Source: Pomacea canaliculata (taxonomy: Eukaryota; Mollusca; Gastropoda; Architaenioglossa; Ampullariidae). Taken from it: a DNA stretch of 64,000 nucleotides. The position numbers and the translations under genes were made by a program. Within the stretch, counting starts at the first letter, position 1, and each line of letters begins with the position of its first letter. Positions 320 to 63,447 of this stretch are shown in pieces. The notes below the pieces were generated by a model, which saw nothing but the letters and a program-made list of their open reading frames with translations, was not told where the DNA came from and made no database searches. Location of the stretch: the NCBI RefSeq assembly GCF_003073045.1, contig NC_037596.1, forward strand, positions 6,653,416 through 6,717,415. Direction: 5' to 3'.

Positions 320-655
320 AGACATAGTTGAGACCACAGCTGGCTGACTGGTTGTCTTCACCTGTAAGACTACACTCCAGACTGCCGTTCAGAAGCTTGA
401 TATTATCGTATACCCTTGCGTTGTTCACAGGCTTGATGGTCATACTTGATCTGTGAGCATCAATAATCCTCCCAACGAAAAGTTCGTTAAATGTTTCCAA
501 CTGTTCGAGTTCCTTGTCATATTGTGCTAAAATGATTTGTTCGCGTGTATGTAGTTTCCATTGAGCTGCCTTCTCACTTGTGCAAATGAAGTGAGTTTCT
601 TGGTCAGACAGTATTTCCTGAACTCCGTCAGCACCACACGGCGAGAGACTGATAC
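320..655 (-). CDS. Exon 2 of gene A0: ISLSPC-type cysteine domain
   Basis: A complete phase 1-1 exon of 336 nt with no stop. Its spacing of 17 residues between the first Cys (SPC) and the second (HFIC) equals that of gene D. The block IDAHRSSMTIKPVNNARVY and the block LLNGSLECSL are nearly the same in both genes, so the frame is well supported. Several N-linked glycosylation sites are present, as expected of an extracellular domain. Confidence 0.8.
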
Positions 656-1281
656 CTGTAAAATATACAAAATTGACATTGATATAATCTATTTTGAGAT
701 ACATAAAATGTAGATATGAAGGCACAATTAGGGTTTTTCTCCGGGTACACGAACCTCTGTATGTGTGTGTCACAGAATAAGTAAGAGAGAAGACTGAAGG
801 CTTCACAGTCTTTTGTTTCTCATACAGATTAGATATTTATGTTAGATATTCGAATACTTGGTTACAACAGTTGAGAATACTAGTTGCGGAAAGTAACAGT
901 GTTAGTGAGACAACTCCACCAACACGTATATGGAAGGTCTGTTATGTCTGAGCATGCTTGAATACTACCAAGTTATATTAAAACAAGTTTTAAGCCAGTG
1001 CATTATAGTTAAATTATAGTCATATGCAATGTACGTTTCTTAGGTCTCGTTTTCAAAGATGCTATTAATGCCTGCTTACTGCTGTACATACAGCCTGATT
1101 TTAACAGCTGCACAATATTTCTCATAAACCGAGTTTGGTTCAAAAAAAAAAAAATTAAAGATCTTGACACTCATTAGTGAAGTTTTAATTTTTTGTCTTC
1201 ACCTCTGACGAGTGGCGGACAAAGAAGAAGCAGGAGAACGCCCGTTTTCCATAAGGTCCTCGCGAATATGCATTTCCACAT
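320..1281 (-). CDS. Gene A0: 5' part of a secreted/surface protein with ISLSPC domain, paralog of gene D
   Basis: Two exons are visible; the gene continues off the left edge. The signal exon is 1281 down to 1203, ending in phase 1 at a GTGAAG donor; its core reads KTGVLLLLLCPPLVR and matches gene D's signal exon in sequence and donor context. The second exon is 655 down to 320 (336 nt, phase 1 to phase 1), with acceptor TTTTACAG and donor GTAAGT. It encodes about 112 residues beginning ISLSPCGADGVQE and ending near CGLNYV, clearly homologous to gene D's exon 2. Two cysteines of the gene D copy (AVCDENC) are replaced together here (AQYDKEL). By analogy with gene D, Ig-like exons should follow to the left. 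The start Met (TGG-AAA-TGC follows) is the first in frame and gives a rather long N-terminal region before the hydrophobic core. The domain family is unrecognised; secretion is inferred from the signal peptide. Confidence 0.72.
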
Positions 1282-3220: not shown

Positions 3221-3224
3221 CCCA

Positions 3225-3480: not shown

Positions 3481-3499
3481 ATCACATCCAACAAAACGA

Positions 3500-6740: not shown

Positions 6741-6759
6741 TTGAAAATTTAAAACGTAC

Positions 6760-6870
6760 ATTTACGGAATAAAAATATGACAATAACTGAAACCAGCACC
6801 AGTAATAATGTTCCAACACAGGCACCAACAATTATAGGGGTAATCGTGTGGACATCTGAAGCTGTGTTAG
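6760..6870 (-). CDS. Gene A exon 3: stalk and transmembrane segment
   Basis: Phase 1-1 exon of 111 nt. It encodes a short Ser/Thr-containing stalk (NTASDVHTITP), then an uninterrupted Ile/Val/Leu/Gly-rich membrane span, then FRKC. Acceptor and donor are both canonical, and the exon joins in frame to the domain exon. Confidence 0.7.
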
Positions 6871-9800
6871 CTGTCAACAAACAACATATATATAAATATA
6901 GGAACCAAAGAACCCTATATATTGAATGATCACTAGCAGTAACCAGGGTTTGGCATATGGATGATTCATGAGACAAGCTAAATAACTGCTGGGAACAAAG
7001 GGATTATGTCCAACCTTCGAAAAGATATTACTGCCTTAAGATTCTGCCTCTAGCCATCACCCCACACCCACTCAGTGAAGTATATTTGCTAACTAAAAAT
7101 CTCCTCCCTGCCCTGTCCATTTTCATAAACAGTGGTCATTATAGCCGTCAAGTAAACACTATTGCTGGGCACTTTGACTTACACTTATACTTGTCTTGAA
7201 TTAAAAGGTACTTTTTCTCTCTTGCCTCAAATGGATGAAAACATATTTTGGAGGGAAAGGCTAATTTTAAAAATAGTATAACAGTAGCAATCTAAACGAT
7301 TTAAAACATCATAGAATACAGAAACACTAACCGAAACTTATATTTTTGCAGCTTTCACTGGATTTCCTAATCAGATCCTTGCCTGGGTCAAAGCAAACCT
7401 TGCATTCAAGCTGAACACCTGCATCACGGCTTGGACTGGCCAGGTAAGCAAACTTGTAGTCAAAGATCTCCCCATCTGTTCCATTACACCAACACGAATT
7501 GGTGACAGGCTTCATGACAGGGGAACAGTTTGAGGAATTAAGGCTTGGCGTACGGCATATGGCGATCCCTGTCCGCTCAAATGTCACATACTTTTGCACG
7601 GCTTCGCACTCCGCCTGTATGATAGCTGTTCTGTTGATCTTGCAACTGACAAGATTTTCTCCATCTGTGAAATATGGAGGACAGCTAAAGTCTACTCCAA
7701 TTAGCAACACTGCAACATAACATAATTACAACTTTAAAAAAATGAAAAGTAGTTTTCCTTCATCACACTACCACTTACAAATAGGAAAACTTCATCACAT
7801 CATAAATATTAGAGTAAATACTTAAACTAGCATTGGTACACTCTAAAAATGACAATAGTATTTATATACATGACTTTTGCGTCTAAACATTTAATTTTAT
7901 CTCAAATGACATATTTTCACATAGGTTGGTTGGCTGGTTTATTTAGTAGGAAAGTGCCTCCAACTCTAGGAGATTTCACACTATGGTGCAAGGAGATGGG
8001 AGGAAGCCCGAGTACCCGGAGAAAACCCCCAGTGCCCAGCCCTCATAAAGGTGTCAAGTACAGAGAGTATCCCGACACAAGATCGGAACCTTGAGCTGCT
8101 CACTGCAGTGGTGATAAGGAAGTGTTTTAACCACTACACTAGCAAGCAGCTATTTTCACACAAATAATGCTGGGGAAATAAAAAGTATTTAACATAGAAA
8201 ATAAAGAAATATTTTAACCACATATCAACCCCTAACTCAAAAAAAGAAGTCCATCCATGAATCAATTAAAAACAACACACCAAATAATTTTCTGCTATTA
8301 TCCACATATATTCCATATATTCATAGATGGTCAGTCTGAATTTTTCATCCTAGATTTTGCAAGATCAAACCACCAATCTTCAGCTTTCTTTGGATAAAAT
8401 ACTCACAATTAAAGGGAGACAATCTAGATTCCCTTGATTTCTTGTTTGCTTGTTTTGTATAACAACTTGACTGATCATTTATTTAAAAGCTATTAACTTA
8501 CAAATGCGGTTATTCTAGAAAATTAAATGTCTGCTGAATATCTAGTATCTGATGTGCACTATCGTTTTGCGTATGCTTTTGCACAACATTAACTGAGGAC
8601 TGAATATTAGAAATCAAAATCACTTTTTGAATAAGACTTCTACACTCTACAGTCATAGGAGTATCTACTTTCTCCCTGTATGATATCGAACATGCACATG
8701 GAAAGAAGATCAAGAAATATACAGATTCTGCAAAAGCGGCTGTATGTTATTGAACTGGGATAAGGATATGTCAAATCATCATAATAATAAATAAAGGGGC
8801 ATGCTATTAGAGCTTACAACAGGAATGAGACATGGACACCATGGACAGCATACGAAGGATGGAAGAATAGACCACAGTGCTGAAAACGAGTAGAAGACAA
8901 ATACAGAAGATACAAAGAAGCACCAATTAATACATGCACTCACTAATAACTGCATATTTACCAAACTAATGAAAAGAAATTGTGAATTTATCTCTATCAA
9001 CAGGTCGAAAATCTTTTTTTCATCTAAAGCACTTAAGTTAGTTTACACAGTCAAATATTTTTAAGACTCGTATAAATAAAGCAGTTATTTTCTTTAATAT
9101 AAATTTCTACTAAAATGAAAAGGAACAGAAACTGAATGCTAGAGCAGTTTTTAGATCCCAGAAGTTTCAAGCACTTTTCACACAAACACATTAATTGAAA
9201 AGCATTAGGTGAGAATGTTTATGAGTGGAAGAGTGTGAGAGAGAGCTGTCGTTACTTGTTAGTAGTACCACATAATTCTTTTCTTTCTTAAGGCATGCAT
9301 AATTTTAATGTTTCACATAATATGCCTTAACCTTTGCAGTGTTTCATCAGTGTGATAAACAATACGCTTTGATAACATTTCAGCAGCAAGAGTTGGCACT
9401 ACTGAATACAAATGAATTTATAAAATAAATAAAAACTGGTAACATTTTTGATTGACTAGATGTAACTACCTAGTGCAGTGGTTCTCAAAGTATTTCAGAC
9501 TGCGGACCACTTTACTTAAGTAAAAAATATGGCGGACCACCAAGGCCTAAAAATCACTCTGTACTATGAATTTCTAATTTAAATTGCCGCATTTGTTTCA
9601 TTACAATTCAAAACAAATGTCCTTTTGAGACAGTATTATAGTAATATGTTGACATAAAACTATACGAGGCGTTCTTTATAATTAAAATGTTAATGCGAGG
9701 AATGCATCACCTTAAACATCACTTTGCTGACATATGACGACTGTCAGCCGCGGACCACCTGACTTATGTCCGCGGATCACTGGTGGTAACTACCTAGCCT

Positions 9801-14118: not shown

Positions 14119-14119
14119 T

Positions 14120-17536: not shown

Positions 17537-17544
17537 TATGTAGA

Positions 17545-18122: not shown

Positions 18123-18272
18123 TCATCACCACAGACATCATGGACGTCTGCTGTCATCACCACAGACATCATACACGTCTGCTGTCATCACCACAGACAT
18201 CATGGACGTCTGCTGTCATCCCCACAGACATCATACACGTCTGCTGTCATCACCACAGACATCATACACGTC
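18123..18272. repeat. 31-bp minisatellite with alternating variants
   Basis: About four and a half head-to-tail 31-bp units of the form CATCAT(GGA or ACA)CGTCTGCTGTCATCACCACAGA. GGA and ACA variants alternate before the last unit, hinting at a 62-bp higher-order unit. It abuts the second TIR element at 18273. Confidence 0.85.
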
Positions 18273-21129: not shown

Positions 21130-21167
<38 letters not shown>

Positions 21168-38535: not shown

Positions 38536-41500
38536 ATGACGGGCCGAACACTTCTCTCAGCTCTTGTCGTCTGCTTCCATCCAGGTCTATCCAACATAGC
38601 ACTGCTACTGTATGGACATATGTGCCTACAAAAAGATCTCCTGAGTGTGTAATATCTAGGAAAGAGGTAAGGCAAACATTATATTTAAGTTTACTTTTAT
38701 ATAAATGACATTTATATATGTCCATATATGCACCTAAATTCCTATTGCTCTATTATGTTAGTGCTCTGTACAAGACTGACTTACCCAAAACAAATATACT
38801 TGCTCCGATAACTTTATGTGAGAAAAGTCTTTTTGTATTGTACGCATCGTATTTTCCTAAAAGTAATAATGTAGAATGACCATTTGCTGATTTCAATCAT
38901 CCACTAAATGTCAGCACACTTATCTTACTGTTAGCTCAGGTATTCCGCACTAACGCCGAATCATGTCACTTAGTTCCTATAAAGTTTTTAACATCCCTTT
39001 CTGGTTGCTTATATACCTGCACTGATAGTCCATTAAATAAATACAGTAATAAATAACAATAAGTAATATATTTAATTAATAATCACGCCGTAGTAAAGAA
39101 GCGAGAGTAGCAGACGACACTGTCATGTGACAAAATGCCTTCACCCAAAAAAAGCTAAATCAAAGATTTTTTAAAGTCTTTTTTTACTTGTTGTTTTTCA
39201 AAATAAAATTATTTTATTTTCCTGAAAAATCTGAATGAAAATTAGTGATCTCGTTAAAAATATTCTTCGACATGACCTACGTACCCATCACATCCATGGT
39301 TTCCTTGTCTGTCGTCCGTGCCGGTCGTCAAAGTAGAATGACTCAGATATATCCTATCTTTATGATGTATATCATCATACCTGCAGGTACGACGTCTTAA
39401 TCATCTATACTAAAACCTTAATGGGAATTTAATAGTTTTTAAAAGAGATCTTGCATTTTCTGAACCTCTGCTTGACAAGGTCGGTACATCGTGCCTAATC
39501 CACATCCTAAGCTGCAAAAGCCATGTTGACTCAAAGAGACTAACAGCTTCAATGGCTAACATTTAAAGGCTTTTCAACTTGTGTAGTTATGCATGTTTCA
39601 TACACATGTCAATAATTAGTTAGATCGTGATCTTTGTTAACACACGGTAGAGACACACCACACAATAGAGACAATCTTGTTAATGTTTCAGTTTCGTGTA
39701 TGTAGAAAATATTTATATTGTTCATAACTCTGTGACTTGAAAAAGAATTTAAGAGTTTAAAAAAGAAAAAGGAGTACATCGGCAGAAATTTCTTATCGAG
39801 TAACGGTAGTAACGCTTATAGGTTGGTTGATCGTATTCAACAGAGGGGACTGTGCTCAGGGTGTATACAATCCATAGTGGTAGTGAAGTGTGGAGTGGGG
39901 CGTGGACTTGTGTACTGTTAAAATTATTTCTTGCCCAATAATAAAAGTGAAAATCCTCTCCTAACCATTTTTAGGTGATAAGAATTGAGTTGATGAAGAT
40001 CTCAATTTTTGAAGGGATTTTGTATTAATGCAGGACTCATTGCTGATGAAACAATGGTCCAATATTAGCCCATGATGGTGTAATGTAAGCTATGTTTTAG
40101 ACAATGGAGACGGAAGGCATTTGTCATAGTCGCGTGGTTTAGCCAAGGGGGGCTGCTCATGCACTCTCGACACATCCCAATATAGACAGATATTGGACAA
40201 TGCAGCATCTAGACAGCAGACTGTAAGTATTTGTTCTGGCTGGGCAAGCATTTTACGAGTCCCATGAGCTGGAGCCGACATACTACCACTGTGGTAACTC
40301 TGAGCTAACCTGACATTCACAGGGTAACGTGACTTGCGAGCCATCACTGGCGACACTAGCTAGAGCCGAATCATGCCAACCAAACCCTGGCCACTATGCC
40401 AATGTCATATAGTTCTACAATAGTAGAAATGGCTTCTTAGTCATTCCTTGCGCCGTCCTACAAGTAAGGTGTGGTGCGAGGTATGGTCGATCAAAAACAA
40501 GGACGCGTTCTCTGAAGCAATATTTGACCAGGCTGGAAACTTGTCTGGCACTTGCTGTGGTCACGTGGCTTGCAAGCCATCACTGACGGCACTTGCTGCA
40601 GCTGATATTCTACCACGACCGTCCTTACCTATCGGCTCCCTGTACCCCCAACGTATCCTGATCTATCGATAAAGTAAATAAAACAATTTTTTCAAACATA
40701 CTTTAATTTAAAACGCACCAAAACGATAAAATATTCTTTCTTTGGGTCTCGGAAACTCTTTAATCTACAAAGCTTAAAATACAAAAGTGTAAGCGACCTC
40801 CAAGAGTTTCAAGTGTGCACATACATTTTAATCATAGACGGGCACAGATGCTATGCATTAGCTGCTGACATTTATTATTTTGTTTTGTTTCAGTGCAGCT
40901 ATATACAGTCGAATTAATTTGCCCTTTAAAGTTCGAAGGCGAACAAAATGTCGTCAAGTGCAGGGTCAACAAAACAGCTGTCATGGGTGCGGAGTGCCTT
41001 CAAGTGCAAACTCATGTCACCTTTGAGTTGCAAGTTGGTTCTCGCACATTTCCCCTGTGCCACACACCAAGCTTTGATTCTTCAAACTGTTCACCAGATT
41101 CGAGGACCGACACAAATAAATGCTGGTGCGATGGAACAGATGGGCAGATATTTGACTACATGCTTGTTTATTCAGCCAATAAAAGCCTTGATCAGGGAGC
41201 TCAACTACTATGCAAGATTTGTTTTGTACCTCAGAAAACGTGGATCCCCAAGGAAAGTGAAAGCTGCAAAGAGATGAACTTTGGTTAGTAATTAATACAA
41301 TGCGATGATAATAGATATTTAAAAACAAAATTAGTTGTGGAATGATTGAATACAAGGAGAGAATATATATATATACCTTTAGTCACTTGTAACGACCAGA
41401 GAGAATAGCATTTTATGATTGTTTGTCAACAGGTATCTCTCATTCAGATGGAATACAGAATTCAAATTCAACACCTGGCGTCATCATAACACTTATGCTG

Positions 41501-41983
41501 GCCTTATTCATCACATATGATCTGTAAGTCAACATTAAGGACATCTGTCTGGATATTTTAGTTTAATTTTACAGAATGGGGATGATGAGAGCCAGGTTTG
41601 GTGCAAGAATTTGTGTACATGTGGTCTTTAAAGGCATTCACCTTCTCAGTTTCTTGATTCCTGTAAAAGGTTGATTTTATTGAGTAATTTTTAAGAATAA
41701 ATACCTGGTGAAAGGTAATGACACAACAAATGATATCATAGCAGGCTACCATTTTAACATGAGATAGGAAAGTTCCGAATAAAGTTCATAAATATATTTT
41801 CAGTTTTTAAAAAGTAGTTGTCACGACCTTTTGTTTATAAGACAAAGTGTATCGCTCTAGATACATGCAGATCAAAGAGTTATTTTACATACATGTTTTA
41901 TGTAAATTACGATATAAGACTAATCAAGGTATCTTTGTTTTTCCAGCATTGCAGGCAAACAGCTCTACTCCATCTTCTCATGA
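38536..41983 (+). CDS. Gene C: ten-Cys domain protein with short hydrophobic C-terminus
   Basis: Four exons. Signal exon 38536-38584: MTGRTLLSALVVCFHP, then CCAG/GTCTAT, phase 1. Domain exon 40894-41283 (390 nt, acceptor TTTGTTTCAG, phase 1-1). Exon 41433-41523 (acceptor TCAACAG, donor GTAAGT, phase 2): stalk SHSDGIQNSNSTPG, then a hydrophobic segment VIITLMLALFITYDL. Last exon 41947-41983 (acceptor TTTTTCCAG), giving IAGKQLYSIFS and a stop. A second acceptor seven bases downstream (41954) would give a longer hydrophobic tail ending 42048. There is no basic cytoplasmic tail like those of A and B, so this could be a tail-less membrane protein or a lipid (GPI) anchored one; I cannot decide. All ten cysteines are present at standard spacing, with the VNKTA sequon. 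Confidence 0.65.
40085..40660. repeat. GC-richer block with an internal repeat in the gene C intron
   Basis: CGTG(A/G)CTTGC(G/A)AGCCATCACTG occurs at 40327-40348 and again at 40564-40585, each followed by a GGC(G/A)(A)CACT stretch. Base composition is higher in GC than the flanks. Probably a mobile element remnant; no class assigned. Confidence 0.45.
40894..41283 (+). CDS. Gene C exon 2: ten-Cys domain
   Basis: 130 residues from QLYTVELICPLKF to SCKEMNF. Cysteine gaps 12, 11, 20, 9, 10, 1, 27, 2, 14, the reference spacing of the family. Shares HTPSFDSSNC and the IFDY motif after the CWC block with genes A and B. Confidence 0.87.
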
Positions 41984-44469: not shown

Positions 44470-44521
44470 ATGAAGACAGTATGGATGTTTCTACTTCTTC
44501 TTTGGCCGTCACTTGTCAAAG
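44470..44521 (+). CDS. Gene D exon 1: signal peptide
   Basis: ATG at 44470 opens a Leu-rich signal sequence ending SLVKG across the splice. The donor is AAAG/GTGAAG, phase 1. About the last 30 bases before the donor match gene A0's signal exon. Confidence 0.8.
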
Positions 44522-46595
44522 GTGAAGCAACGTTTTATCCAAGCTTTAAATATAAGGTTACTTATTCTGATTAATCCAGACTCGTAATTAAGTCTTTTGT
44601 TGACTGTAAAACTACCAAGATCTCACAACACTAATTGATCGTAATAAATTTAATAGGAGATTTCATTAAATAAATATAAAATGCTTAGGAATACCTACGT
44701 CCGAAAGTATACACAAACTGCTTATATTTTTTCGTACATTTTCTCATCAAAAGGCTATCGATCCTAAATAAAGCAGTTACTTAACACGAAGAGAATTTTA
44801 TTTATCGGGAAAAACATACTGATGGGCTTTCTAGTGAAATTTGAAAGTTTAACATATCTTTACAATTAATGTTATAAAAATACGACTGTGAGATACAAAC
44901 ACCGGATTTCATAGAAGTTCATGATCTGTGCAAATGGACATCAACAGATTAAAATAAAAACACAACGGTTAACCTGGAACTTTAATGAGTTCTCATTCGT
45001 CTTAAAACTCTATAGTAGTTTCCCTATTTTATTTTGAGTAGATTTCAATAGATTGAGAAACCATTTTGATGCATGTCTTTGACCCGATCTTCCAGCCTTC
45101 ATCTCAGAGTACATCTCTTTATTTATACTTTACTAGTCATTGTGGGGTTTTTTCTCAACCGCTAAATAAAAGTGATTACTATTTTGTCACAATGAATTTG
45201 CTACAGGTATCAGCCTCTCACCATGCGGCAGTGACAACGTCCAGGAAGTTGTAAATGAACAAGAAAATCATTTCATTTGCAAAGCTGAGAAGCCAGTATA
45301 TTGGACATTACAGTCAAAAGACACTACGACAGGTAAACTCGTTTTGGCAGTGTGTGACGAGAACTGTACTCAGCTGGAGACACTGGGCAAGCTCTTCATC
45401 GTCAGGACCATCGATGCTGGCAGATCGTCTATGATCATCAAACCTGTGAACAACACGATGCTGTATAACTATGTCCAGCTTCTGAACGGTAGTCTGGAGT
45501 GTAGTCTAAGAGATGAGAGAAAGTCCGCTCGTTGTGGACTTAACTATGTAGGTAAGAAGTCTATTGTTTCCTGGATAGCTTAGTGTTTACAAATTTCGTA
45601 TCGCCAGATATAAAATTAAGCTATAGTGGAGCGTTTCTCTGAAGAAAAAAATGAGAAGGTGAAAGATTGCTAGATAACAAGCCAACAAACGCTCTGCTTT
45701 TTTTTAAATCAAGTAGGTCCCACCAAACCAAAACAGAATGAGGCTTAAGGGAGGATAGGTCAGGTCGGGTCAGGTCAGTCCCATGCCCGGTCCGGGCGTA
45801 GGGGGGACCGTCCGGCAGCAGCAACAGACATAATTTTCCATCCGGTCCTGTCTTGAGCAGATGAGAGCAGGTCCGGCATCTCGCGTTCGGTCCATTCTTT
45901 GATGTTGGTGACCCAGCTTTTCCTCGACGACCACGACGACGGCCCCTTCGAGGGTTCCTTGTAGGATCGTCTTGGACAGGGTGTTGTGGCGGTGACGTGA
46001 CCGAACCAGGCGAGCTTGCGCCGCTTCACTGTTGCCAGAAGGGGCTCATGTGGGCCCACGAGAGAGGTTACGGTGCTCCGTACGTATTCGTTGGTCTTGT
46101 GTTCGCGGTACGAGATGCGGAGCAGCTTTCTCAGGCACTTGTTCTCAAAGGCCTGGACTTTCTTTTCCGTTGTGGCAAGCAGCGTCCAAGTCTCGCAGCC
46201 GTAGAGAAGGATTGACACCACGAGGGACTTGTACAGCCTGTGCTTGGTACTGAAGCTGATTGAGTTGCTCCGCCAGATCCTATCCAGCCTGGACATTGCG
46301 GATGTTGCCATACCAATCCTGATACGGATCTCTGCTGTACAGCAACCATCTCTAGTCAGGGTGGCACCCAAGTACTTGAAGCTGTTGACCTCCTCCAGTT
46401 TCTGGCCGTTCATGACGATGATGCTGCTGCTGTCGTTGGTGGAAATAATCATCACTTTGCTTTTTTCTGAGCTTATTTCCAAGGGAGGATACCTAACTAA
46501 TTATTTTAAAAACCCTTCTACATGCACATGTGTTGACAAACGTACGTGCTGTTAGAGTGTAAGAAAAACAACCAAGAAAGAGAAGAATAGTCAGG

Positions 46596-46681
<86 letters not shown>

Positions 46682-49600
46682 TATTATTATTATTTGATTT
46701 TTATAGCGCTTTACAAAGATTTGCTCATAGGGATTTGATATAAATCATACATAGACTAAACCATCAACATATATGTACCCACGCTAGTATATAACAGACC
46801 CGCATACCTCTACAACATGCACTCATATACAAAGTAAATACAAACACGATATGCCCACGCAGGGTCAGGAGAGGGTCACGACTAACTCATCATTCTGAAA
46901 AGATCTGTGACCCTTCGATCACTAGTTTCACATGCAGTACTTACAGCGTTCAATTTCAACTACCTGTTGATGTGTCAAGAAGTGAAAGTAGTCAAGTCTT
47001 CCAGCTTAAAGTTTTAAGTGGATTACATGCTATCAGAGATGTTTCCTGATTTCCAACTTTCATGCTTCTCTTTTTCAGCTTTTTCTTTTATCTTAGATGG
47101 ATCCTTTTGACGAGTTTTTTTATTATTATTCATAATACCGAACATGTAGGTTTAAGTCTACGTTTAGTAATTTAGACAGTGTGTGTGTGTGTGTGTGTAA
47201 GAGAATGTGTGTATCTGTATGTCTATGTGTGTGTGTTTTCTATATGCTCAGCCTAGTTTTCTTGGATTTGTCTTTATTTATCCGTACTAGTTTCTTTGCA
47301 ATTTCTTTATTTTATTCATTGTTTAGTTTCTTTCGATATGTCGCTTTTTAATTTCTCTTGCTCCTGCCTTTTAATTTTTAACTCAATCCTTTGAATACAC
47401 AGATCCACCAAAGAATGTGACATGCACAGCAGCAAATGTGTCGTGGTCCGTCAATGTGTCATGTGTCATCAGTAGTGTCTACTCTTCTCGGAAAAGCTAC
47501 AGTTGTCAGCTACTTTACAGGAAAGATAAGGTAAAACTCCATGAAAATTAATCTTTTTGCTAGTTACTACCTACAACTGAATTTATTTCTTTATCTTTAT
47601 ATTTCTCTTAATTGATTAATCTATGAAACAATTGTCAGCTGAAATGCTTATCTTTTGTATTACTTCATGATAATACATTCACTTTACAGTCAAGAAAAGT
47701 AGTAAAGATGACAGGGGATTTCATCGTCTACATGGTCATTCGAATATCATATGCTTCCTACTGTACTTAGTCCATCATAGACACAAATTACCTCTAAAAT
47801 TTTCTTATTTATGTTCTGTATCCGTGTTGTTGATAAGTGTTTGCTCAAGGTGGCGGGTGGTACAGGAAAAAAGTTAGTTTAAGTTTAAGTAGGTTTTGTC
47901 AAGCTCATTAATTCTGATTCTAGTTGGGAAACATCACTACATAATATACCTGATTATTTCTTATTTCTATCAAAGAATAAAACACTGGAAAATGTGTCTA
48001 TGGTGACTTCACCAACCTGGGAAAGAATTAGCAAGAGTGAAGTGAAGGTGTCAGGTTCCTGTCAGTTCAACACAACTCTCCCGACAGAAGAAGGACTTTA
48101 TGGCTTTCTTGTCTTAATCTCACCTAGTGGACAACATTTTGCTGCCAGTGATAAGTGGTTTACAGTTGGTGAGAACCTCAGTGTAATATGTTTCGACTTC
48201 AAAGAATTGTTTAAAAATTAATGTAGAAAAAAGCTGGAAAAGACAACAAAATAAAAAGAAAGGAAAGAAAGATAAAATAAGATCTTGATGAGATCAAAGA
48301 TAACAATAAAAACCTATAGTGAATAAAAGTACAAATGATGATAGCAGTTGATTAGATAAAGGGAAACAATGGAAACTCTGTATTAATGTTGCCCTTACCT
48401 TTGGAGAAGCACAGGCTGCACAACCTGTTGTTTGAAAGGGAGAAATATAAATATCAAAAGGGATTTTTCTCTCATATTATTTTATGTTGCTAATGAATAT
48501 TGAGAAGGTGTAGCATTATATAGTATGCGTGAACAAAAGAAAAAAACTATTTTTTAATTATTTTTAATGTCTGGTACACTGCTGTTAACGAGATATTTTT
48601 TAGCTTTAAAAACATCCTGTTAAATAATTAGTATGTGCAAGCAATAAATGTAAGTTTCAGGAAGATTTTAAAGCTCAGATGTTTACATATTAGTGTAATT
48701 TTTGCTTCAATTTATTTCCAAAAGAATGCTGCACTCAAAACACTGCAATCAAAGAATCCATTTTGATTTGATAATATTTGTAATCACTAGACTTGCTGAT
48801 GTGTGTTTAGAACAGCCCAAATCACCAACCGTTTCCTGTAGTCCCTACCCCTACGTGTTAGAAAACACCAATGTCATCTGTACCTGTAGGACCACTAGTC
48901 TTGGACAACCTGCAGGGTATCTGAGATGGATCATAGCTAACTTGACCAACGAAAAGATTGCAGTAGTTCAAGAGGAACATACATTCGTGTCAAAAGAACT
49001 ACAGTATACTCATCACATGACCCTGTCAGATCATGACAGAACTTGGCTTAGATGTGATGTCATATGGGGAACCAGTGGCAGCCAAGGAGAGAACTACACT
49101 GCACGTGTAGGATGTAAGAGTTTTTCATTACATTAATTGTGTAATAGGTTCAATTGGTGGTTATAATCCAGCTATAAACATGTATCCATGGATCCATGCA
49201 TGCATATTTTGTCTAAGTATAAATTTAATGTACTACGGTTTACAATCTTCGCTATTATCCAACATAAACGACTTCATCTCGCTCTTACTTCCTATACTTC
49301 CAGACGGAAGCAAAACACCACGACTTTCTCTGAACGGTCGTGGGAGGCATGTGACTGTCATGGAAGGAGACAAAGTTCAGTTTAGGTGCGAATCAGACGG
49401 CCGACCCGCTCCAAACGTTAGCATCTACAATAACGACAACAACAGTGTCATCGTTAGAGGCTCCTCTCTTGTTGTCTACACAGTCATCGCTCGATGCCAG
49501 GACACCGCCACGTACTCGTGCGCTGCGAAGAACGAGTTCTCACGTCACGTGACCAGCTCTTACAACATCAAGCTTGGTGTTGGATGTGAGTGCACATGTT

Positions 49601-52600
49601 AAGAAACTATCTTCAAATAGTTAGTTTGCAAAGTTCAAGTTCGATCTTCTTGCCATTATTGCCTTTATTGTTTCTGCTTTAAATCTCAGCATATGTCTTG
49701 TCTATAACTAGAATAAATTCATGTGCATGTCATATAGCCCAAAGTTGAATCAAGAACTAGATTAATCACAACTCGATAAATCTTCATATGAAACTAGCTG
49801 GATTCTTCTTCTCTCTATTTAATGGTCTCTTGACTGGAATAGAAAAAGTAAAATCATTGGTTTTATTTTCTGAGAGCTACAAGACGGGTTAATGTTAAAC
49901 AATTTATTATGAGACAGGAAGGGACATATGTAATTTATTTGTAATCCTTCTGATGCACGCAGAAAAGGATTGGCTAATAAAAAAGGAAGCAACTCCCAAC
50001 AGCGTCCATTTAGGTCTAGTTTTTTAATATATCATCCTTCTTCCAGAGTACTCTTTTAGACGGTCTTGGCGAGGCGAATGTATGTCAAAATGCTGTCCAA
50101 ATATGGAATAATACCTCTTCAATACATACCTATTGAAATGATGGTTACATAATACGATCACTTTAATGTGGCAGGTAAACCTCAAAGCGTTTCAACCACA
50201 GGCATTCAAAAGTTCCAGTTTCGGAACAAAACAGAAGAAAAAAACTTTGATGTTATGGCATACCCAGTACCACACAAATATAGAATCTGGTATGTTGAAC
50301 CAGTGATCACCAACACCAGTGAGCCTTTACAAGAAAATGTCAAAGATTCAGAGATGACTGTCACCTGCAGTGCTTCCGCCGAGCGAAGTTACCTATCCAA
50401 GTGCACTCTGACAATATTCAGTATTATCTATCCTTCAGGCTTTTACAAGGTGCAAATCATCAATGAACACGGCGATGAGAATTTCACATTTGAGATCAGC
50501 TACGGTGAGTGACTAGTTAATGAGGCAAAGGCTTAATATAATTTTCTTTTATTAAGTGGTGAAGTCTCCGTTCATGATCTGTCGTATGATCTACAATTTA
50601 TTCTAGTAACCACTCATGTGCTGCCCAGTAGATTAAATGACAATTTTTTCTGCTCGAGATCCTTTTGAAACGGTTCTGAAAAAATTCGTTTTAAAAAGAT
50701 TTATAAAATTAAAATTGTTTTAAGTATTTTTGAAACACTCGATTCAGTATGACTGAAACAAAACTTTTAAAATGCATACTGTGATTTCTAACATGCCTTA
50801 ACACTCCCTTTAGCACGTATGACTTATTAATTACACCCAGTATCACATCTTTTATAATATCCTATAAGAGCCTTCATGGCATCCTCCTTAATAGACACCA
50901 TACTTCCTTTTCATCAACTCATCCCACTATACAGTTCCAATCAGTTCGAGCTTCGCTTACAATCACAGTCTAAACAGATAAGTAAGTTTTATTTCGGTCA
51001 CCTTGTACACAAGATCGTTTAATTCCACAAATCCAAGCGGTAAGTGTTAACTTCTCAATCACACAATGTAGGAACAAGAGGCCATTTCAACAGGCTGATC
51101 ACTAGACTGACCAAAAAAAAAAAAAAAACACAAAAAAACAAAAAAACAAACCACCAACAAAATAAAACAAAAACCACCACCCCTGGAAAAAACAAACAAA
51201 ATAAGCCGGCTAATTGAAAGGTTTCTTGACACTGCTGTGCTGGTCGACTGGTTGTTACAGACGCTCCTACCTGCACTAGCACTCCAGTTTTTATTCTCGA
51301 CAAACAGGGATTTTATTAGGAGCAGCACCAACACTAAGCAAATGCGTATACGGGAGTGATTACAGGTGGCTATAGTCTATAGCCGGTCGGTGTTAAAACA
51401 CGTTTGATAATGCGATGTTGAAGAAAACTTTGTCGAGGGACATCCGCATATCAAAGATGCTAATAAAGGTAAGATTTTTTCCTGTTAACTACCATAAGTA
51501 TGCGAAAAAGAAGTGGTTTTGTTCTTGAGACACATGGAATAAATAATATTAAATTTAAAACTTATTTGTGATATACCAAGATATTAACGAATATGTAATC
51601 CGTTAGACGTACGATAATATAGTGTTCTCCTGTCACCTGAGACATATTGTGTATAATATTATAGCTAGCTTTAGTTTTTTAAAACCATTTAACTCGATTT
51701 TAATAATTTAACGAATTAGTACGAAAAGACTGTGAAAGCCCTTGACAATAATTATTTTGCCATAAGGAAGGACGAGTTACGTCCCTTGTGCTAGCATTCG
51801 CTCTCTTAATTTTTCTCAATGGTCAGTAAACGAAAAAAAAAAGAAAAAGCACACAAAGAAAATGTATCCACATAAAAGAAATTAAATTAGATGTTTTTAG
51901 CAACACCTGTAGTTGATTTTTTTCTGTTTTATAGTCCTGTTATTTTATTTTCCTCTCTATCTTTTGCTATTTTATCAATTTATGTGCATGATAACACTGT
52001 AGGTGCAAAAGAAATTTCATAGGACTCTTACCGATAGGCGCAGTATACGGAGCCTGGAGATGTGAGTGTTTGAGCCTTGCTAATGCCATGGAATCACGAG
52101 CCTGGAGATGCCATGAAGTATTTAAAGAGTTTTTGTTTTGTGAGTTGTTTAGAATGTATTGATATCCTGGAATGTTTGCCCCAGGGAAGTAGAGGTCGCT
52201 CGTCCCCAGACACAGTGCCATATTGTGGATAACGTTTGACCCCAGGTGGAAAGGTCAGTTGTGTGTGTAATAGATCTTAAATAGTAGTAAGGATTAACTG
52301 GTGCATCTTGACTAAAAATTATTTTTCATTTTTATTAATTTAAATTACTAAATGTTTACAGGCCGACAAAAGAGACTGAGTTGTTTGTGAAGAAAAGTGC
52401 TCTCAAATGTTTAAGTGTCAAAGTAAAACAAACAATATTTAAATAAATAAAACAAACAGAACAGAAAATGTGACAGTGGATACGGCTTTGTCAGCACTAT
52501 CTACTCCTCACATATTAGTCCGTAATTTACTTCTGTAAAAGAAAATTTATTTATAAGATTTCAGACGATGATTTTATCTCATACATAACTGGTTTAACTT

Positions 52601-54324: not shown

Positions 54325-57300
54325 ATCGTGTGTGTGTGTGTGTGATCGTGCGTTTGTTTACTGATCTCTGGACTTAACTTTTTCCTTTTTATGGGTTTAA
54401 CTTTCATTAAAATTGAACTTGGTTCGTCTTTTCTAAAATAGTATTAAAGCGTTTTTTTGTGTTGAGTTTGAGTGTTACTCAAGATCACAAAGTAGTCTGT
54501 AGAGATTGTGAAACTAGTGTCGTTAGGTGTGAACACGAACTCAAAATACCTTGAAATGTATTAGGCTCTCTCTGTCCCAGTCTCTCTATCTCTATCACAC
54601 ACACAATGTAAAACCGACTTTAAAAGAACATTTTACTGTGATTACCTCTGGGGTAACTATTTTATCATTTGTCGATGGATGTGTCCACTGAGAAGTAATT
54701 TAACTAGTAACTAATTCTGTAATGGGTGATTGAATGGACATGTGCGTTGTTCAATCGGTAAATGCTCGAATCAATCGTTGACAGAAAACAGTTATTAGCA
54801 GGACCTTTCTTCATACGGTTTGATAAATTATAGGTTTGGCTAGGACTCTTCAGAATACAACATGAATACAACATGTTAGCACTACCTCCTCGTAGCAAAC
54901 TTACCCTGTGAAGGTTAACATCTGGGTGACCGTACGACATGAGTACAGGTACACCAGTAATAAGGCGTTTACTTCATAGGCTTCTCCTTGCCTGTATTAA
55001 ATTGCTTAAGTCTGAATTTCCTCTCACTATCTTCCTTAACCTCTTAGTCTTTTATCCTTTCCGTCCCACGTGTAAATCTGATACAGCCTGGACTACAGGG
55101 CCACAGAGTTTGAAGTTCATGTCCTCTGTACTGTCAACGTTAAAAGCGTTTTTTTTCATAGTTCGTGGAGATTATTTCTTCTACCGTGTTTTACCGAAGA
55201 AAGACTGGGGCTTACATTTTTGTCGAAAAGAGGTATTAGGGCTTTCTTTAGGGGATGTCTAACTTTTTCAAGTACACAAATTTACATTTATTCTAAAACA
55301 TTCATATAATCTTCTTCTGAAATATTGTCACCACTCATACCGTTACTTATTTACATATTATTATTTTTCTTTACAGGTCAATATTTCCGCCGTGTGTTTC
55401 AACGAGAACAAAATCAGTTCATCTGGGTAACGATCTTCACAAGGGCTTTTATGTAGGGTTAGGCTTGTATCACGAGCGTTCCGTTACTCCTTATTTGGGA
55501 TTGAGCCTTATTTTTGGAGAAACACGGTAGTCTATGGTCCTGTGATGCCACAGACATCTCGGTGTGTGTTAAGCTGATTATAACACCACAGCTACATGAA
55601 GTCGACGCTTATGCGGAACTAAACCAAAAGAAATGGAGACTTGGAGTGTGTTGCTGATCTTAGCTTCAATTCCATTAAGTAAGTGTCTTTTAGGTTTTGT
55701 CTGCTTCATTGTTAACGATTCTTTCCTATGTACTCGCATACAAGGGGTGTGCTAGCGAATGTGTGTGGGTGAGAGAGAGAGAAACAAAGAGAGAGATGTA
55801 CACTTTTGCGAAAACCAATCTTTCCAGGTAAGAGAAGGGTATGGCAGCTTCGAGTCTAACGACTCGTCCTGTTGTCTAAGGATGCTGCTGTCTCTCTCCA
55901 GTGACAGCCAGGTATTCTCAGGTTGTAAACAGCGCAGCACCGTTAAGTCTCTTCCACCCGTTTCTCCGTCTTGGACACTGATGGCTCTCGCTCCTGGATG
56001 ATACCAACCCTGCCTTGTGGGGAAGCAGCTAACAAGGATGCTGTGCCATGTATGGCTACCGAGGATGTGCATGGCTGCTGTGATGCCAAGTTTGCGGTGC
56101 ATTGTTTCTCAGGTTCATCCTGGCTTTATTATAGAGACAATACCTGGCAAACTTTCCTGTCAACTGCTATCTTGGCCTTTGCACTCTTGTGACAACCCGC
56201 TAGCAGTGTCGGTGTGTTGAGGTGCACTCCAATCTTTTGCCTTTTCTACGTTAACTAATGTCCCCATCCTTAGAAAAGGGCGATTGGATGTGAAAGGGCC
56301 TCCACCAGCAGTTTGTCAAGGGAAATAATAGATACTAAATCCACATACTGCCATCCTAATTTTTGTCAAGGAAAGCCTTAATGAGTTGTCCGTTGCAATG
56401 GTAGTTCCAGTAGCATTTTCCCTCATCACTATTGGTTTATTTTTTGAGGGTTACGGGGAGCAATACCTCGGAGATGAAAATAGAGAGAAAATGTAAATAT
56501 ATGATGAGATTCGTCAGTGCTACATTACTTCAAACAATTCAATCGAAAAAGCTCGAACGTGTTATTCTTGTTTTAAAACATATATGCTTTTTGCCGGTTG
56601 ATTTGACCATCTACCCACTTGACCAAGTCTTTGACGACGCACAAGTGTAACTTGACCAAAGATATTGTATTTCAGTGCCTTTCGTTCGATCATGACCATC
56701 AATTAGTCGATTCCTTCACAACCCAAAATCGACATGATCACAGCACTGAGTAGATGTGCCCAGGATATGAGTTTTGTCTGAAAGGCCCAAGATTAACCAA
56801 TGCAAAAAAAGCATAAATATCTCTAATACATGGTTCATTACCGGCACACAACTGTGTCCAACTTCTCTCTGTTCAGTCTGCTCAGCTCCACTCCCTTCTC
56901 CTCAGTGAAATCAAACACAAAACCACTTTTCAATAACTGCTTAATTTGGGGTCTCTTGTCCCAAGTAACTTAGTTGCACCACCACCGCATTGGTTATTAC
57001 GGATTATAGACTTCTATATAAATCTTTCATTGGAAAGCAGCAACAGTGCATGTGAACCAATGATAACAAATTTTTGTCACATTTATCATGATGTTGTAAA
57101 CTCTTATGCAGGAAGTTGTCAAATTTGGCTTAAATGTTTGGTGATTTTAAGTGGTGCTTATCTTCTGCGACAATGTGAGGATGCTGTGCTGTATAGTTTC
57201 ATACTTCAAATTTTTATTCTTTACCGTACATAGAGTATATCTAAATGTGTATTATGTAACCCCATAGCGTGACCTTAACTACAAACTTTTCATGTTTTAT

Positions 57301-57895
57301 TGCTTGCAGCTTGGGAGATAGGTGAGGCGCTGAAATGTCCAGAGGTCTTCACTGACGGTATAAACATCATTACCTGCGAAATCAACCAAACAGCCATCGA
57401 CAATGCTGGTTGCGTTTTCTTGCAGAGCTCAGTAACATTTGATCTTACAGTGGACGACAGTAGACGCGTTTTATGTTACTCTGCTTACATGAATCTAGAT
57501 AGCTGCTCTGGAAAACAGAATAAAGAGCAATGTTGGTGTGATCATAAAGATGGAGAGATCTTAGTTTATAAATTTTCTTTCCACTTCAACCGCACCATAC
57601 ACAACAATGCACAACTGGAATGTCAACTTTGCATTGCACCTTCAAATCATCTTGCCAGTACAGCCACTGGCAGCTGCAAAAATCTTAAAGGTAGTTTCTC
57701 ATGATGATGATGATTCATCTTTTAAACCTATTACTCTTAAAATTCATGAGGACGGTACAGAATAATGTAACCATGGTTCATAAATTCTCTGAAGTTTAGG
57801 TAATCCAACAGAAACTACTTTGTGTAAATCAGTTTGGCAGAGAATGAGAAACATTGTGAGTTTGTTGGCCACATTTAAAGACAGAATTCTACCAA
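54325..57895. repeat. Tandem duplication, left copy (contains gene E start)
   Basis: Matches 60420-63650 in order and orientation from the TGTGTGTGATCGTGCGTTTG block to AAAGACAGAATTCTACCAAT. The left copy has about 470 bp (55100-55570) missing from the right one. By eye the introns are over 90% identical. Confidence 0.88.
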
Positions 57896-58687: not shown

Positions 58688-59308
58688 GCGATTCCTAATT
58701 AAACTGTGTAAAAGAAATTGCTCTAGGGAGATGCAGTAAAATCTGCCCTACACATGTAGCATAAGTTAGCGAAATTGGAATCCCTAAAGACATTCAAAAT
58801 GAAAACTACGTTCAAATGAACATAAACAAGTGTCTATTTAAAAATTATTGTAACAAAATTATGTACATTTATTTTCCTTTTTTTTGTGTTGGGTTCACAC
58901 ATGCAATTTTAGTTACTTTTAGGTTCATCAGTGCATCTGATTCAATACACCAAACAAATACATTTTTTATTATTCAGTTTTTCAAAGCAGAATTTGAGTC
59001 TATGTGAGTGTATATATGTGTACATTGTTTTCATTTTCAATCACTAAACCCAAATGCAAGCAAACCAGAGTGTGATTTTTTCTTATACTTTATGCTCCAT
59101 TTCCAGTGATTTTCGTTGATTGCTCGTGTTATTCTTTAAGACTAATCCGGGAAAGAAGCTTCATTTCAGTTGCACTAACGACGAAACCTTCGAGGCTGAG
59201 CGTCACATCCGGTGAGCTGTCACACGCCTGTCTCCACTGTCGTCGTCAAGACAACAAAGAAAGCAAACACACAACCTACTCACTTTGCTGAAACAGCAGA
59301 CGAGAGGG

Positions 59309-60370: not shown

Positions 60371-61242
60371 GGGCAGCTGTCCAAAGTGTACTCATTATTA
60401 TTGTTTTCAGGCTGCGGACTCTGTGTGTGTGTGTGATCGTGCGTTTGCTTACTGTTCTCTGGACTTCCCTTTTCCCTTTCGATGGCTTTAACTTCCCTTA
60501 AAATTGAATTTGGCTCGTCTTTTCTTAGAGAGTATTGAATCATTTTCCGTGTTGACTTTGAAAGTGCGACTCAAGATCACAAAGTAGTCTGTAGAGATTG
60601 TGAAACTAGTGTCGTTAGGTGTAAACACGAACTCAAACTACATTGAACTGTATTAGGCTCTCTCTGTCATAGTCCCCCTATCTCTCTCTCTCACAATGTA
60701 AAACTGACTTTAAAATAACATTTTACTGTGATCACCTCTGGGGTAACTATTTTATCATTTGTGGATGGGCGTGTCCACTGAGAAGTAATTCAACTAGTAA
60801 CTAATTCTGTAATGGGTGATTGAATTGACATGTGCGTTATTCAATTAGTAAATACTCAAACCAATCGGTGACAGAAAACAGTTATTAGCAAGACCCTTTT
60901 TTTCACATTTTTGATAAATTATAGGTTTGACTAGGCCTCTTCAGAATACGACATGAATACAACATGTTAGCACTACCTCCTCGTAGCAAACTTACCCAGC
61001 CTGTGAAGGTTAACATCTGGGTAAACGTGCGACATGAATACAGCTACACCAGTAATAAAGCCTTGACTTTATATGGGCACTTTGCCTGTCTGAATTGTTA
61101 ATTGGCTATCACTAACTTCCTTGTCGCTAAGTCTTTTTATCTTTTCCGTCCATGCGTAACTCAGTCTGGACCACACGAGCTTTGCAGCTCTAACACTACA
61201 GCTACAGGAAGTCGACGCTTATGTGAAACTAAAATAAAAGCA

Positions 61243-63447
61243 ATGGAGACTTGGTGTGTGTTGCTGATCTTAGCTTCAATTCCTTTAAGTAAGTTTGTGT
61301 TTTGGTTGCTACATTGTTAACGCTTCTTCCTATGTAGGGTTAGGGTTAGGGTTAGGGTAGAACTAGTGGTGTACTAGTGTGTGTGTGTGACTAAGAGATT
61401 ACACTTTTATGTCCAGTATGCCTCTTGCGAAAATAAATATCTCCCGATGATAGAAGGACACATCTGCTCCCGTGATGGCAGTTTCGAATCTAACGACTCA
61501 TCCTGTTGTCTAAGGTTGCTGCTGTCTCTCCAGTGGCAGTCAGGTATTCTCAGGCTGTAAACAGCGCAGCACCGTTAAGTCTCCTCCGCCCGTTTCTCGG
61601 TCTCGAACCCATTCTGATGGCTCTCGCTCCTGGAGGATAACACGACCCTGCCTCGTGGGGAAGACAGCTAACAAGGATGATGCCATGTAGGGCTATCGAG
61701 GATGCGACCCCGTTTGTATTCATTTTCTCCGATGTGCATGGCTGCTGTGGTAACAAGTTTGTGGTGCATTGTTTCGCGGGGTCTCTAGCATCCTGGCTTT
61801 ATGATAGCGACTATACTTGGAAAACTGGAAGACGGTCACGGCGATTTATAACAGAGAAGGGGTTGAAGGGAAAGCCAAAGTTAGTCCACTGTTTTTTGAG
61901 ACCGTTAGTTTGGTGCTCCCCTGCTTACTTTTGTATAGGACACAACACGAGGATGCTATACAGCGCTGTAGTGTTGTGTGTTGTGCTCAAGGAAGTTGAG
62001 GATTTGTGTCATCCATATTATGTAAAAGAGACTTTGAGGAAGACTGTTAAGGTTCACTTTAGCCTACTATACTGGTGGCTGGAGACTCTGAATCTTGTAA
62101 ATAGAGAAGCATAGATACTAAAAATTACATACCGCCATCCTAAATTTTGTCAAGGAAAGCCTTGATGAGTTGTCTGTTGCAATGGTAGTTCCAGAAGCTT
62201 CTTCACTATTAGTTTACAGAGAGACAGAGAGAGAGAGAGAGAAGAGAGAGGAGAGAGAATGTAAAGATATGATGAGATTTGTCGATGCTACATTACTTCA
62301 TACAGTTCAATCGAAAAGGCTAAAACATGTTATTGTTATTTTAAAACATATATGCGCTGGTTGCCAGTTGACCATCTACCCACTCGACCGAGTCAGACCA
62401 CGCAGAAATGTAACTTGACCAAAGATATTGTATTTCAATGTCTTTAGTTCGACCATCAATTAGTCGATTCTTCCACAATACAGAATCGAATTGATCACAG
62501 CCCTGAGTAGATATGTGACCATGATATGAGTTTTGTCTGAAAGGCCCAAGATTAATAACCAATGCAAAAAAACCCATAAATATCTCTCATACCTGGTTCA
62601 TTACCGGAACACAGCTACGTCCCACTTCTCTCTGTTCAGTCTGCTCAGCTCCACTCCCTTCTGCTCAGTAAAATCAAACACAAAGCCACTTTTCAATAAC
62701 TGCTTAATTTGGGGTCTCTTGTCCCAAGTAACTTAGCTGCACCACCACCGCATTTGTGATTACGGATTAGACTTATTTACAAATCTTTCATTGGAAAGCA
62801 ACAACAGTGCATGTGAACCAATAATAACAAATTTTTGTCACATTTATCAAGATATTGTAAACTCTTATGCAGGAAGTTGTCAAATTTCGCTGAAATGTTT
62901 GGTGATTTTAAATGGTGCTTATCTTCTACGACAATGTGAGGATGCTGTGCTGTATAGTTTCATTATTCAAAATTTTTATTTTTTGCCTTACATAAAGTAT
63001 ATCTAAATGTATTATTATGTAACCCCATAGCGTGACCTTAACTACAAACTTTTCATGTATTATTGCTTGCAGCTTGGGAGATAGGTGAGGAGTTGAAATG
63101 TCCAGATGTCTTCACTGACGGTATAAACATCATTACCTGCACAATCAACAAGACAGCCATCGACAATGCTGGTTGCCTTTCAATGCAGAAGTCAGTAACA
63201 TTTGATCTTACAGTGGACAACACTACAAATACACCATGTCTCGCTGCTTACAATCCAGATAACTGCACTGGAAAACAGAATGAAGAGCAATGTTGGTGTG
63301 ATCATAAGAATGGAAATATCTTTGTCTATAAATTTTCTTTCCACTTCAACCGCACCATACACAAAGGGGGACAAATGGAATGCAAACTTTGCATATCTTC
63401 AAATCATTCTGACACAACCGCCACTGGCAGCTGCAAAAATTTGAAAG
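61243..63447 (+). CDS. Gene F: ten-Cys domain protein, 3' end outside the window
   Basis: Signal exon 61243-61288: METWCVLLILASIPL, donor TTTAA/GTAAGT, phase 1. Domain exon 63073-63447 (375 nt, acceptor TTGCTTGCAG, phase 1-1) encodes WEIGEELKCPDVF to SCKNLK. Ten cysteines, gaps 12, 11, 20, 8, 8, 1, 27, 2, 13. More sequons than gene E in the middle (NTT, NCT). The signal peptide differs from gene E at one residue (Ser to Cys at position 5). Downstream exons lie beyond 64000; none could be seen to the edge. Confidence 0.68.
61335..61359. repeat. Short interstitial telomere-type array (TTAGGG)
   Basis: Four perfect TTAGGG-phase units in the first intron of gene F. The aligned place in gene E (about 55720-55745) has none. 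Confidence 0.9.
63073..63447 (+). CDS. Gene F exon 2: ten-Cys domain
   Basis: 125 residues. N-terminal third and the block from CWCDHK to FHFNRTIH are nearly the same as in gene E; the DNTTNTPCLAAYNPDNC segment is not. Confidence 0.88.

Follow-up and report, generated by a model that had tools for sequence, protein, structure and literature searches.

What kind of gene cluster occupies a 64,000-nucleotide stretch of chromosome 7 (C7) of the gastropod mollusc Pomacea canaliculata (assembly GCF_003073045.1, contig NC_037596.1; C7:6653416-6717415, the whole of which we call the window)? A first-pass annotation saw in it seven modular surface-protein genes, forming one family of freely exchangeable exons. 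Five of the genes (B, C, D, F and G) share an N-terminal exon with ten conserved cysteines, the ten-Cys exon, and two (A and E) share another, the ISLSPC exon. We read the window together with its surroundings (257 kb including the window) and searched one whole assembly (440,159,624 bases in 24 contigs) for relatives of each exon, tblastn-type copy counts being lower bounds. As judged from the genomic sequence, the window belongs to a complex on chromosome 7 in which two families of predicted surface-protein genes are intermingled. The complex is probably built on a linked two-gene recognition-receptor unit, a ten-Cys gene lying upstream of an ISLSPC gene, that has been amplified in clusters on this chromosome.

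A recurrent pair drawn from two families

The seven N-terminal exons of the window are open, bounded by an AG acceptor and a GT donor, and in phase 1 on either side by this reading, just as first described:

321..653, minus strand: gene A, ISLSPC exon, first ectodomain of an immunoglobulin (Ig)-stack gene
7333..7707, minus strand: gene B, ten-Cys exon, paired with co-oriented gene A 7.0 kb downstream
30332..30718, plus strand: gene C, ten-Cys exon, unpaired, 9 of the ten conserved Cys
40896..41282, plus strand: gene D, ten-Cys exon, paired with co-oriented gene E 4.3 kb downstream
45209..45550, plus strand: gene E, ISLSPC exon, 58% identical to that of gene A
57312..57689, plus strand: gene F, ten-Cys exon, unpaired
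63075..63446, plus strand: gene G, ten-Cys exon, unpaired

The ten-Cys exons of B, C, F and G are 51%, 46%, 31% and 33% identical to that of D, and all four are found beyond chance by a tblastn search with it (E 2.3e-36, 2.8e-35, 2.3e-18 and 2.0e-17, respectively). C is short of one of the ten cysteines claimed, having CKIF where most copies have CxxC.

Genome-wide, the ten-Cys queries from D and F gave 46 and 49 matches (a union of at least 49), all on C7, and two ISLSPC queries gave 50 and 49 (a union of at least 51), 48 of them on C7 and three on C1. The first-pass proposal of many related surface-protein genes, with domains foreign to Pfam, is thus borne out, and their number is far greater than the window suggested. 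Two C7 clusters, at 6.6-6.9 and 9.65-10.53 Mb, hold 37 ten-Cys and 48 ISLSPC exons; the 257 kb read contain 12 and 6, respectively. The cluster and pairing analyses used 46 ten-Cys exons, the other three lying at 27.3-28.2 Mb.

The two types recur as neighbours. For 22 of the 37 clustered ten-Cys exons the next domain exon downstream is a co-oriented ISLSPC exon within 15 kb (3.1-13.7 kb), as in the window pairs B with A and D with E; the mirror order, ISLSPC upstream of ten-Cys, occurs once in 37. Permuting exon types, strands or both produced means of 10.4, 8.2 and 7.2 pairs and maxima of 21, 18 and 17, and none of the 20,000 permutations of each kind reached the observed number. These shuffles treat copies as independent; as units are copied whole, the statistic therefore speaks for a unit that has been kept and not for 22 independent events. 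Partners have also diverged together. Their amino-acid distance matrices over the 22 pairs are correlated (Mantel r 0.731, Spearman 0.556; 0/20,000 permutations, maximum 0.379), with physical distance controlled (partial r 0.715), in cluster 2 alone (19 pairs, r 0.749) and over 15 non-redundant pairs (r 0.526; 0/5,000 in each of these three), and in 10 of the 22 pairs both partners have the same nearest neighbour. Units tend to be copied as wholes; their co-divergence is no proof of binding.

The Ig exons belong to one side of the pair. In gene A the ISLSPC exon is followed by four more ectodomain exons, ig2 to ig5, and within the 257 kb each of the six ISLSPC exons has same-strand relatives of ig2 and ig3 behind it, three of the six also relatives of ig4 and ig5. 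Over both clusters, a co-oriented ISLSPC exon stands no more than 9 kb upstream of every ig4 match (31/31), every ig5 match (31/31) and at least 33 of the 36 ig3 matches (the ig3 assignment ran on 35 matches, a partial match at 6921302 being counted as unassigned). All three exons are present behind 25 of the 48 ISLSPC exons and none of them behind nine; 19 of the 22 paired ISLSPC exons have the full set. A common origin of the two N-terminal domains was considered and rejected: hhalign, comparing 46 ten-Cys with 6 ISLSPC sequences, gave a probability of 0.3%, equal to that of the reversed control. Because ig3-ig5 follow the ISLSPC exons, and because of this null result, we reject a single family assembled by exon shuffling. 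The seven-gene modular cluster first described survives as five ten-Cys and two ISLSPC exons on both strands, but as two families and not one shuffled set.

Relatives also occur beyond the two clusters. Further ten-Cys, ig3, ig4 and ig5 matches lie on C7 at 2.2-2.7, 13.7-13.8, 22.76-22.83 and 27-31 Mb, and in the searches with these four exons the only matches off C7 are three of ig3, on C1. Two plus-strand ten-Cys exons at C7:27163971 and 27166725, 2.75 kb apart with a synonymous divergence (dS) of 0.074, are perhaps one gene with two ten-Cys domains, or a recent duplication. Three minus-strand ISLSPC exons stand on C1 (31715689, 31721837 and 31729493), of which two are close to the C7 copies 9648 and 10373 (dS 0.15-0.27); their closeness points to recent interchromosomal transfer or to an assembly join.

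Two neighbouring genes or one

Judged by its exons, each pair would most simply be two neighbouring genes. Since the exon phases match (1-1), a spliced fusion is also conceivable, in which each unit is one composite gene joining the ten-Cys exon to the ISLSPC exon and Ig stack, the ten-Cys anchor being an alternative end and the ISLSPC signal exon an alternative start. Co-orientation, the 3-14 kb spacing and duplication as a unit would all suit such a gene, which we nevertheless consider improbable, given what lies between the two domain exons. In all seven pairs inspected a candidate signal-peptide exon with a phase-1 donor lies 159-745 bases upstream of the ISLSPC exon; by the same thresholds one turns up in 9.5% of 750-base stretches taken at random from the region. 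Six of the seven also have an anchor exon with a stop behind the ten-Cys exon, and here the control is kinder to the composite gene, as 28.5% of random 700-base stretches hold an anchor candidate by the same criteria. The signal-exon thresholds are loose ones, stricter scans having yielded few candidates. By the random-stretch control the signal exons are good evidence and single anchors weak evidence, the six anchors carrying weight mainly because three of them resemble one another (61-76% identity to the third). Each family is, moreover, also found alone, which again argues against a composite gene.

Architecture of the two families

Beyond its N-terminal domain, a ten-Cys gene would consist of a signal peptide, this one disulfide-rich ectodomain and either a transmembrane exon or a tail of the glycosylphosphatidylinositol (GPI) type. 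The window and its right flank supply the following parts:

6752..6874, minus strand: gene B, transmembrane exon with two possible ends, the stop behind FRKCTF or the weak phase-1 GTAAAT donor behind FLF
31182..31313, plus strand: gene C, transmembrane exon with a phase-1 acceptor, basic RRR past the transmembrane segment and a phase-1 GTAAGT donor
41433..41527, plus strand: gene D, last exon with a GPI-signal-like C-terminus, SNSTPGVIITLMLALFITYDL then stop
55633..55678, plus strand: gene F, signal-peptide exon, METWSVLLILASIPL
61243..61288, plus strand: gene G, signal-peptide exon, METWCVLLILASIPL
from window position 64954 (954 bp beyond the window end), plus strand: gene G, GPI-like last exon, by its likeness to a GPI-anchor signal

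A transmembrane exon follows the ten-Cys domain in B, C, t6624 (at C7:6622.2 kb) and p10524, and a GPI-signal-like last exon in D, G, t6723, t6741 and t6771, with weaker cases in p10026, p10058 and p10161; the GPI calls are readings of the sequence by eye, without a predictor. The short hydrophobic tail of the first-pass annotation is the tail exon of D and is reread, with that of G, as a likely GPI-anchor signal. Cytoplasmic exons may lie beyond the transmembrane exons of B and C; no tail homology among B, C and t6624 appears in the matches listed (4.5 kb downstream, E 1e-3). F and G stem from a stretch of about 6 kb that was recently duplicated in tandem, its blocks (among the 20 largest of 31 repeat families) being 85-97% identical and spaced 5.6-6.1 kb apart.

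The predicted order of an ISLSPC gene is signal peptide, ISLSPC domain, ig2 to ig5, transmembrane segment and a cytoplasmic tail in which tyrosine motifs occur several times, distributed as follows:

1203..1281, minus strand: gene A, signal-peptide exon, 26 codons, phase-1 donor AG|GTGAAG
C7:6652.8 to 6642.3 kb, beyond the left window edge, minus strand: gene A, ig2, ig3, ig4, ig5, transmembrane and tyrosine-tail exons
44470..44521, plus strand: gene E, signal-peptide exon, MKTVWMFLLLLWPSLVK, phase-1 donor
47904..48170, plus strand: gene E, ig2 exon core, without Pfam match
48789..49112, plus strand: gene E, ig3 exon core, C2-set_2-like, E 0.0031, under cut-off
49294..49578, plus strand: gene E, ig4 exon core, Pfam Ig_3 E 3.5e-9, I-set 8.4e-8
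50174..50506, plus strand: gene E, ig5 exon core, closed by a phase-1 GTGAGT donor
59179..59259, plus strand: putative decayed cytoplasmic exon of an Ig gene, weak (52% identity, E 0.003, in-frame stop)

Gene A is incomplete in the window, which holds its first ectodomain; the remainder lies to the left of the edge: ig2 at C7 6652.8 kb, ig3 at 6649.0, ig4 at 6647.6, ig5 at 6646.8, the transmembrane exon at 6646.1 and tail exons at 6644.7, 6643.8 and 6642.4 kb. A further gene, ig6606 (C7 6610-6600 kb), has the same exon order. The signal exon of A has a weak donor (score 2.4) and was second in score, being picked for its nearness and its likeness to that of gene E. A separate signal-peptide exon, claimed for every gene, is found with a phase-1 donor in A, E, F and G and as a weak candidate (39338) in D.

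The tail exons common to A and ig6606 contain EIIYEIP, PVYAVVDK/PLYAVVDK, GLIYVTPFF and TEYSTI/ADYCTL. Judged against the forms of the immunoreceptor tyrosine-based inhibitory and switch motifs (ITIM and ITSM), TEYSTI of gene A fits the ITSM form TxYxx[VI], and SEYVVL (A) and VVYAVV (ig6606) fit the ITIM form; these last two are not among the conserved tblastx matches, and non-coding frames also give many chance matches to tyrosine motifs. The last tail exon has 13 matches in the genome. Twelve fall inside the clusters, all of them 6.0-11.4 kb beyond an ISLSPC exon of the same orientation, and one of the 12 contains a TGA. The stretch at 59179-59259 could be a lost or split-off tail of gene E.

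Several observations weigh against the two-gene unit as drawn here. Fifteen of the 37 clustered ten-Cys exons and 26 of the 48 C7 ISLSPC exons are unpaired, and the exon joins in all the gene models are inferred from genomic sequence. Upstream scans gave no convincing signal exon for B or C, no anchor exon was found downstream of F or in the p10137 pair (one of the seven inspected), and gene E shows no transmembrane or tail exon in the 6 kb past ig5. The last tail exon is recognisable for only 12 of 48 ISLSPC exons, and most of the conserved tail tyrosines fall outside the ITIM form.

Identity of the domains

The N-terminal domains had been called unrecognised, and searches of Pfam agree: nothing significant was found for ten-Cys in the five window copies or in 27 of the 46 copies scanned, nor for ISLSPC in the two window copies or in 6 of the 51 exons. 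Profile searches of the PDB gave single matches only, at E 1.1 (ten-Cys, not an Ig protein) and 1.8 (ISLSPC). The Ig character of the ISLSPC genes comes from the domains behind. Of three ig4 members two exceed the Pfam cut-off, in gene E as Ig_3 (37.5 bits, cut-off 30) and in gene A as Ig_2 (33.8, cut-off 27) and Ig_3 (33, cut-off 30), with best E-values of 3.5e-9 (Ig_3) and 3.9e-8 (Ig_2), ig6606 falling under it. Taking an Ig domain over a curated cut-off as the mark of the immunoglobulin superfamily, the ISLSPC genes belong to it through ig4. C2-set_2-like ig3 exceeds its cut-off in one of four members (one paralogue, E 6.4e-6), and neither ig2 (two members) nor ig5 (three members) has a match over cut-off; A and ig6606 each have five ectodomain exons and one transmembrane exon, and of the ectodomain types only ig3 and ig4 have members over a Pfam Ig cut-off.

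For the ten-Cys ectodomain of about 125 residues a fold can be proposed tentatively, and it is Ig-like. An AlphaFold2 (AF2) model from the five window sequences (predicted local distance difference test, pLDDT, 70.1; predicted template-modelling score, pTM, 0.71) places Cys22 and Cys106 in strands at the positions of the Ig B-F pair, as read off the strand list, and in a Foldseek search the best 50 of 1,903 matches (E <= 10) are titled as Ig-superfamily chains, antibody V domains foremost. The strength of these matches tells the other way: E-values are 0.03-0.11, none at or below 0.001, and template-modelling scores by query length 0.31-0.47, and no Ig family is among the Pfam matches of 27 ten-Cys members and the five window copies. 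Antibodies are, besides, very common in the PDB, so that the Ig-like reading is likely and not settled. The corresponding ISLSPC model is unusable (pLDDT 38.8).

A different kinship was also considered. Ly6/uPAR (LU) proteins have a small Cys-rich single domain, a GPI anchor and a separate signal exon, and CC-x4-CN is their terminal motif. The ten-Cys genes share the small Cys-rich single domain, the separate signal exon and a GPI-like end. They differ in that no LU profile is among the Pfam matches of 27 members, the terminal CC-x4-CN is absent and the AF2 model looks Ig-like, and membership was rejected.

Sequence change within a kept frame

Across 46 ten-Cys copies the ten cysteine columns are kept in 46, 46, 45, 40, 45, 46, 46, 45, 38 and 41, and the loops vary; among the cluster copies entropy peaks in columns 119-135 and 48-63. 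For ISLSPC, 31 sequences were aligned: the cysteine of six columns is kept in 27, 31, 29, 29, 31 and 30 of them, and one tryptophan is invariant (31/31). The ratio of nonsynonymous to synonymous divergence (dN/dS) in close pairs (dS < 0.5) ranges from 0.13 to 3.97 in 20 ten-Cys pairs and from 0.38 to 1.33 in 23 ISLSPC pairs, values computed without a significance test, the 3.97 (L037/L039) resting on 0.5 synonymous changes. Gene F compared with its three neighbours gives 0.92-1.04, at a raw flank divergence of 11.6-15.2%, and more distant comparisons (dS 0.83-1.14) give 0.33-0.48. Positive selection was rejected as an account of the ratios near 1 in some recent pairs: none of 15 Fisher tests was significant for dN above dS, which also counts against a repertoire under diversifying pressure, and our claim is therefore one of rapid change.

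Ratios near 1 in several pairs would also suit an array of mostly decaying duplicates, relaxed or pseudogenised and with little present function, and the missing tail of E, the missing anchor of F and the stops in one ten-Cys and one tail-exon match would accord with this. We regard it as very unlikely. A stop codon lies inside just one of 46 ten-Cys matches (query D) and none of 50 ISLSPC matches, the cysteines are kept while the loops change, and the more distant comparisons have lower ratios. A clustered germline set with a kept disulfide frame and changing loops is read most simply as a probable recognition repertoire.

Other features in the window

The window also holds several other elements. 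A plus-strand open reading frame at 37324-37737 carries a CENP-B_N domain (Pfam E 1.8e-5) and is probably the remnant of a pogo/Tigger-type DNA transposon; a stretch related to it also lies upstream of another ten-Cys copy. Between the exons of gene E, an open frame on the minus strand (45775-46500; Pfam DUF6451 E 5.2e-6, under cut-off) looks like part of a non-LTR (long terminal repeat) retrotransposon, and a long (AAT)n microsatellite occupies about 46590-46700 in an intron of the same gene. Among the 20 largest of 31 repeat families in the window, a separate local duplication upstream of gene B (9092-10513 and 12290-13413) has blocks 79-99% identical at a spacing of 2.9-3.2 kb, and a 31-base tandem repeat (18123-18277) is open in at least two frames.

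Recognition, and relation to known systems

The proposed basic unit is a co-oriented pair that would have been duplicated as a unit, each family having also expanded alone. Both proteins would stand on the cell surface, most obviously that of haemocytes, and would make up a recognition repertoire diversified in the germline. The ISLSPC protein would be the likely sensor, signalling through its tyrosines, and its ten-Cys neighbour a ligand, a co-receptor or a separate binding protein, roles suggested by the lack of a cytoplasmic part in its GPI form. An immune role, which we infer, would agree with the receptor layout, with the clustered and tandemly duplicated genes and with the dN/dS ratios near 1 of several recent pairs, none of which proves it. 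Immunity is not the only role to which surface layout, clusters and fast change would point: gamete, egg-coat or mate-recognition proteins, or neural or epithelial adhesion proteins, can also evolve in clusters. A non-immune recognition role of this sort is unlikely in our view. Two parallels argue against it. The tyrosine-tailed Ig layout resembles that of CgIgIT2 of the oyster Crassostrea gigas, with five Ig domains, a transmembrane segment and an immunoreceptor tyrosine-based activation motif (ITAM), which is described as recognising Vibrio and lipopolysaccharide (review, PMC11999971). In another snail, B. glabrata, clusters of single-pass transmembrane genes are associated with schistosome resistance (PMC7494358, PMC11426442, PMC4361660).

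An immune recognition repertoire built on the two-gene unit would have points in common with both systems and would differ from each. With oyster IgIT, as CgIgIT2 is described, it would share several extracellular Ig-type domains, one transmembrane segment and a tail with tyrosine motifs; the Pomacea tails, however, carry YxxP, YAVV and Yxx[IL] motifs, and here at least 51 first-domain exons encode an unrecognised domain and have a linked ten-Cys partner gene. The B. glabrata PTC2/GRC genes likewise form clusters and encode fast-changing snail surface proteins, most of which lack known domains, and most single-pass transmembrane genes of the PTC2 region fall in two large paralogue groups (PMC11426442), a parallel to the two Pomacea families by description only. 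Those loci were defined by the divergence of their haplotypes and by their association with resistance to schistosomes, whereas the Pomacea complex consists of paralogues in one assembly, and it has GPI-like forms, Ig domains in the ISLSPC family and regular two-gene units. Clustered recognition receptors are known. For the ten-Cys plus ISLSPC unit, the titles and abstract openings listed for open-licence papers on gastropod Ig receptors, Pomacea immune families, IgIT and allorecognition or gastropod gene pairs give no description, and the word 'immunoglobulin' is absent from the main text of the P. canaliculata genome paper (PMC6129957).

For a linked pair the nearest analogue may be NKRP1-CLEC2 (NKR-P1/Clr), where receptor and ligand genes lie in one cluster and are tightly linked (PMC3819593). 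In that system receptor and ligand are both C-type lectin-like, whereas here the folds are others, the two domains have no detectable relation and binding is only putative. By this analogy each unit might pair an anchored ten-Cys self-marker with its own tyrosine-signalling Ig receptor, the two held in register through tight linkage and co-duplicated, a speculation that we think rather unlikely.

What the locus offers is an apparent pairing of a small anchored protein with an Ig receptor (with a tyrosine tail in some copies), 22 times in two clusters. Neither N-terminal domain matched Pfam among the copies scanned, and domain-based annotation would therefore miss both. If the PTC2 paralogue groups correspond to the two families, the layout would suggest which proteins to test together and would give the receptors a signalling arm. 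Should the self-marker arrangement prove true, it would constitute an invertebrate repertoire of linked receptor-ligand pairs, following a logic like that of NKR-P1/Clr or of allorecognition, but with domains unrelated to each other.

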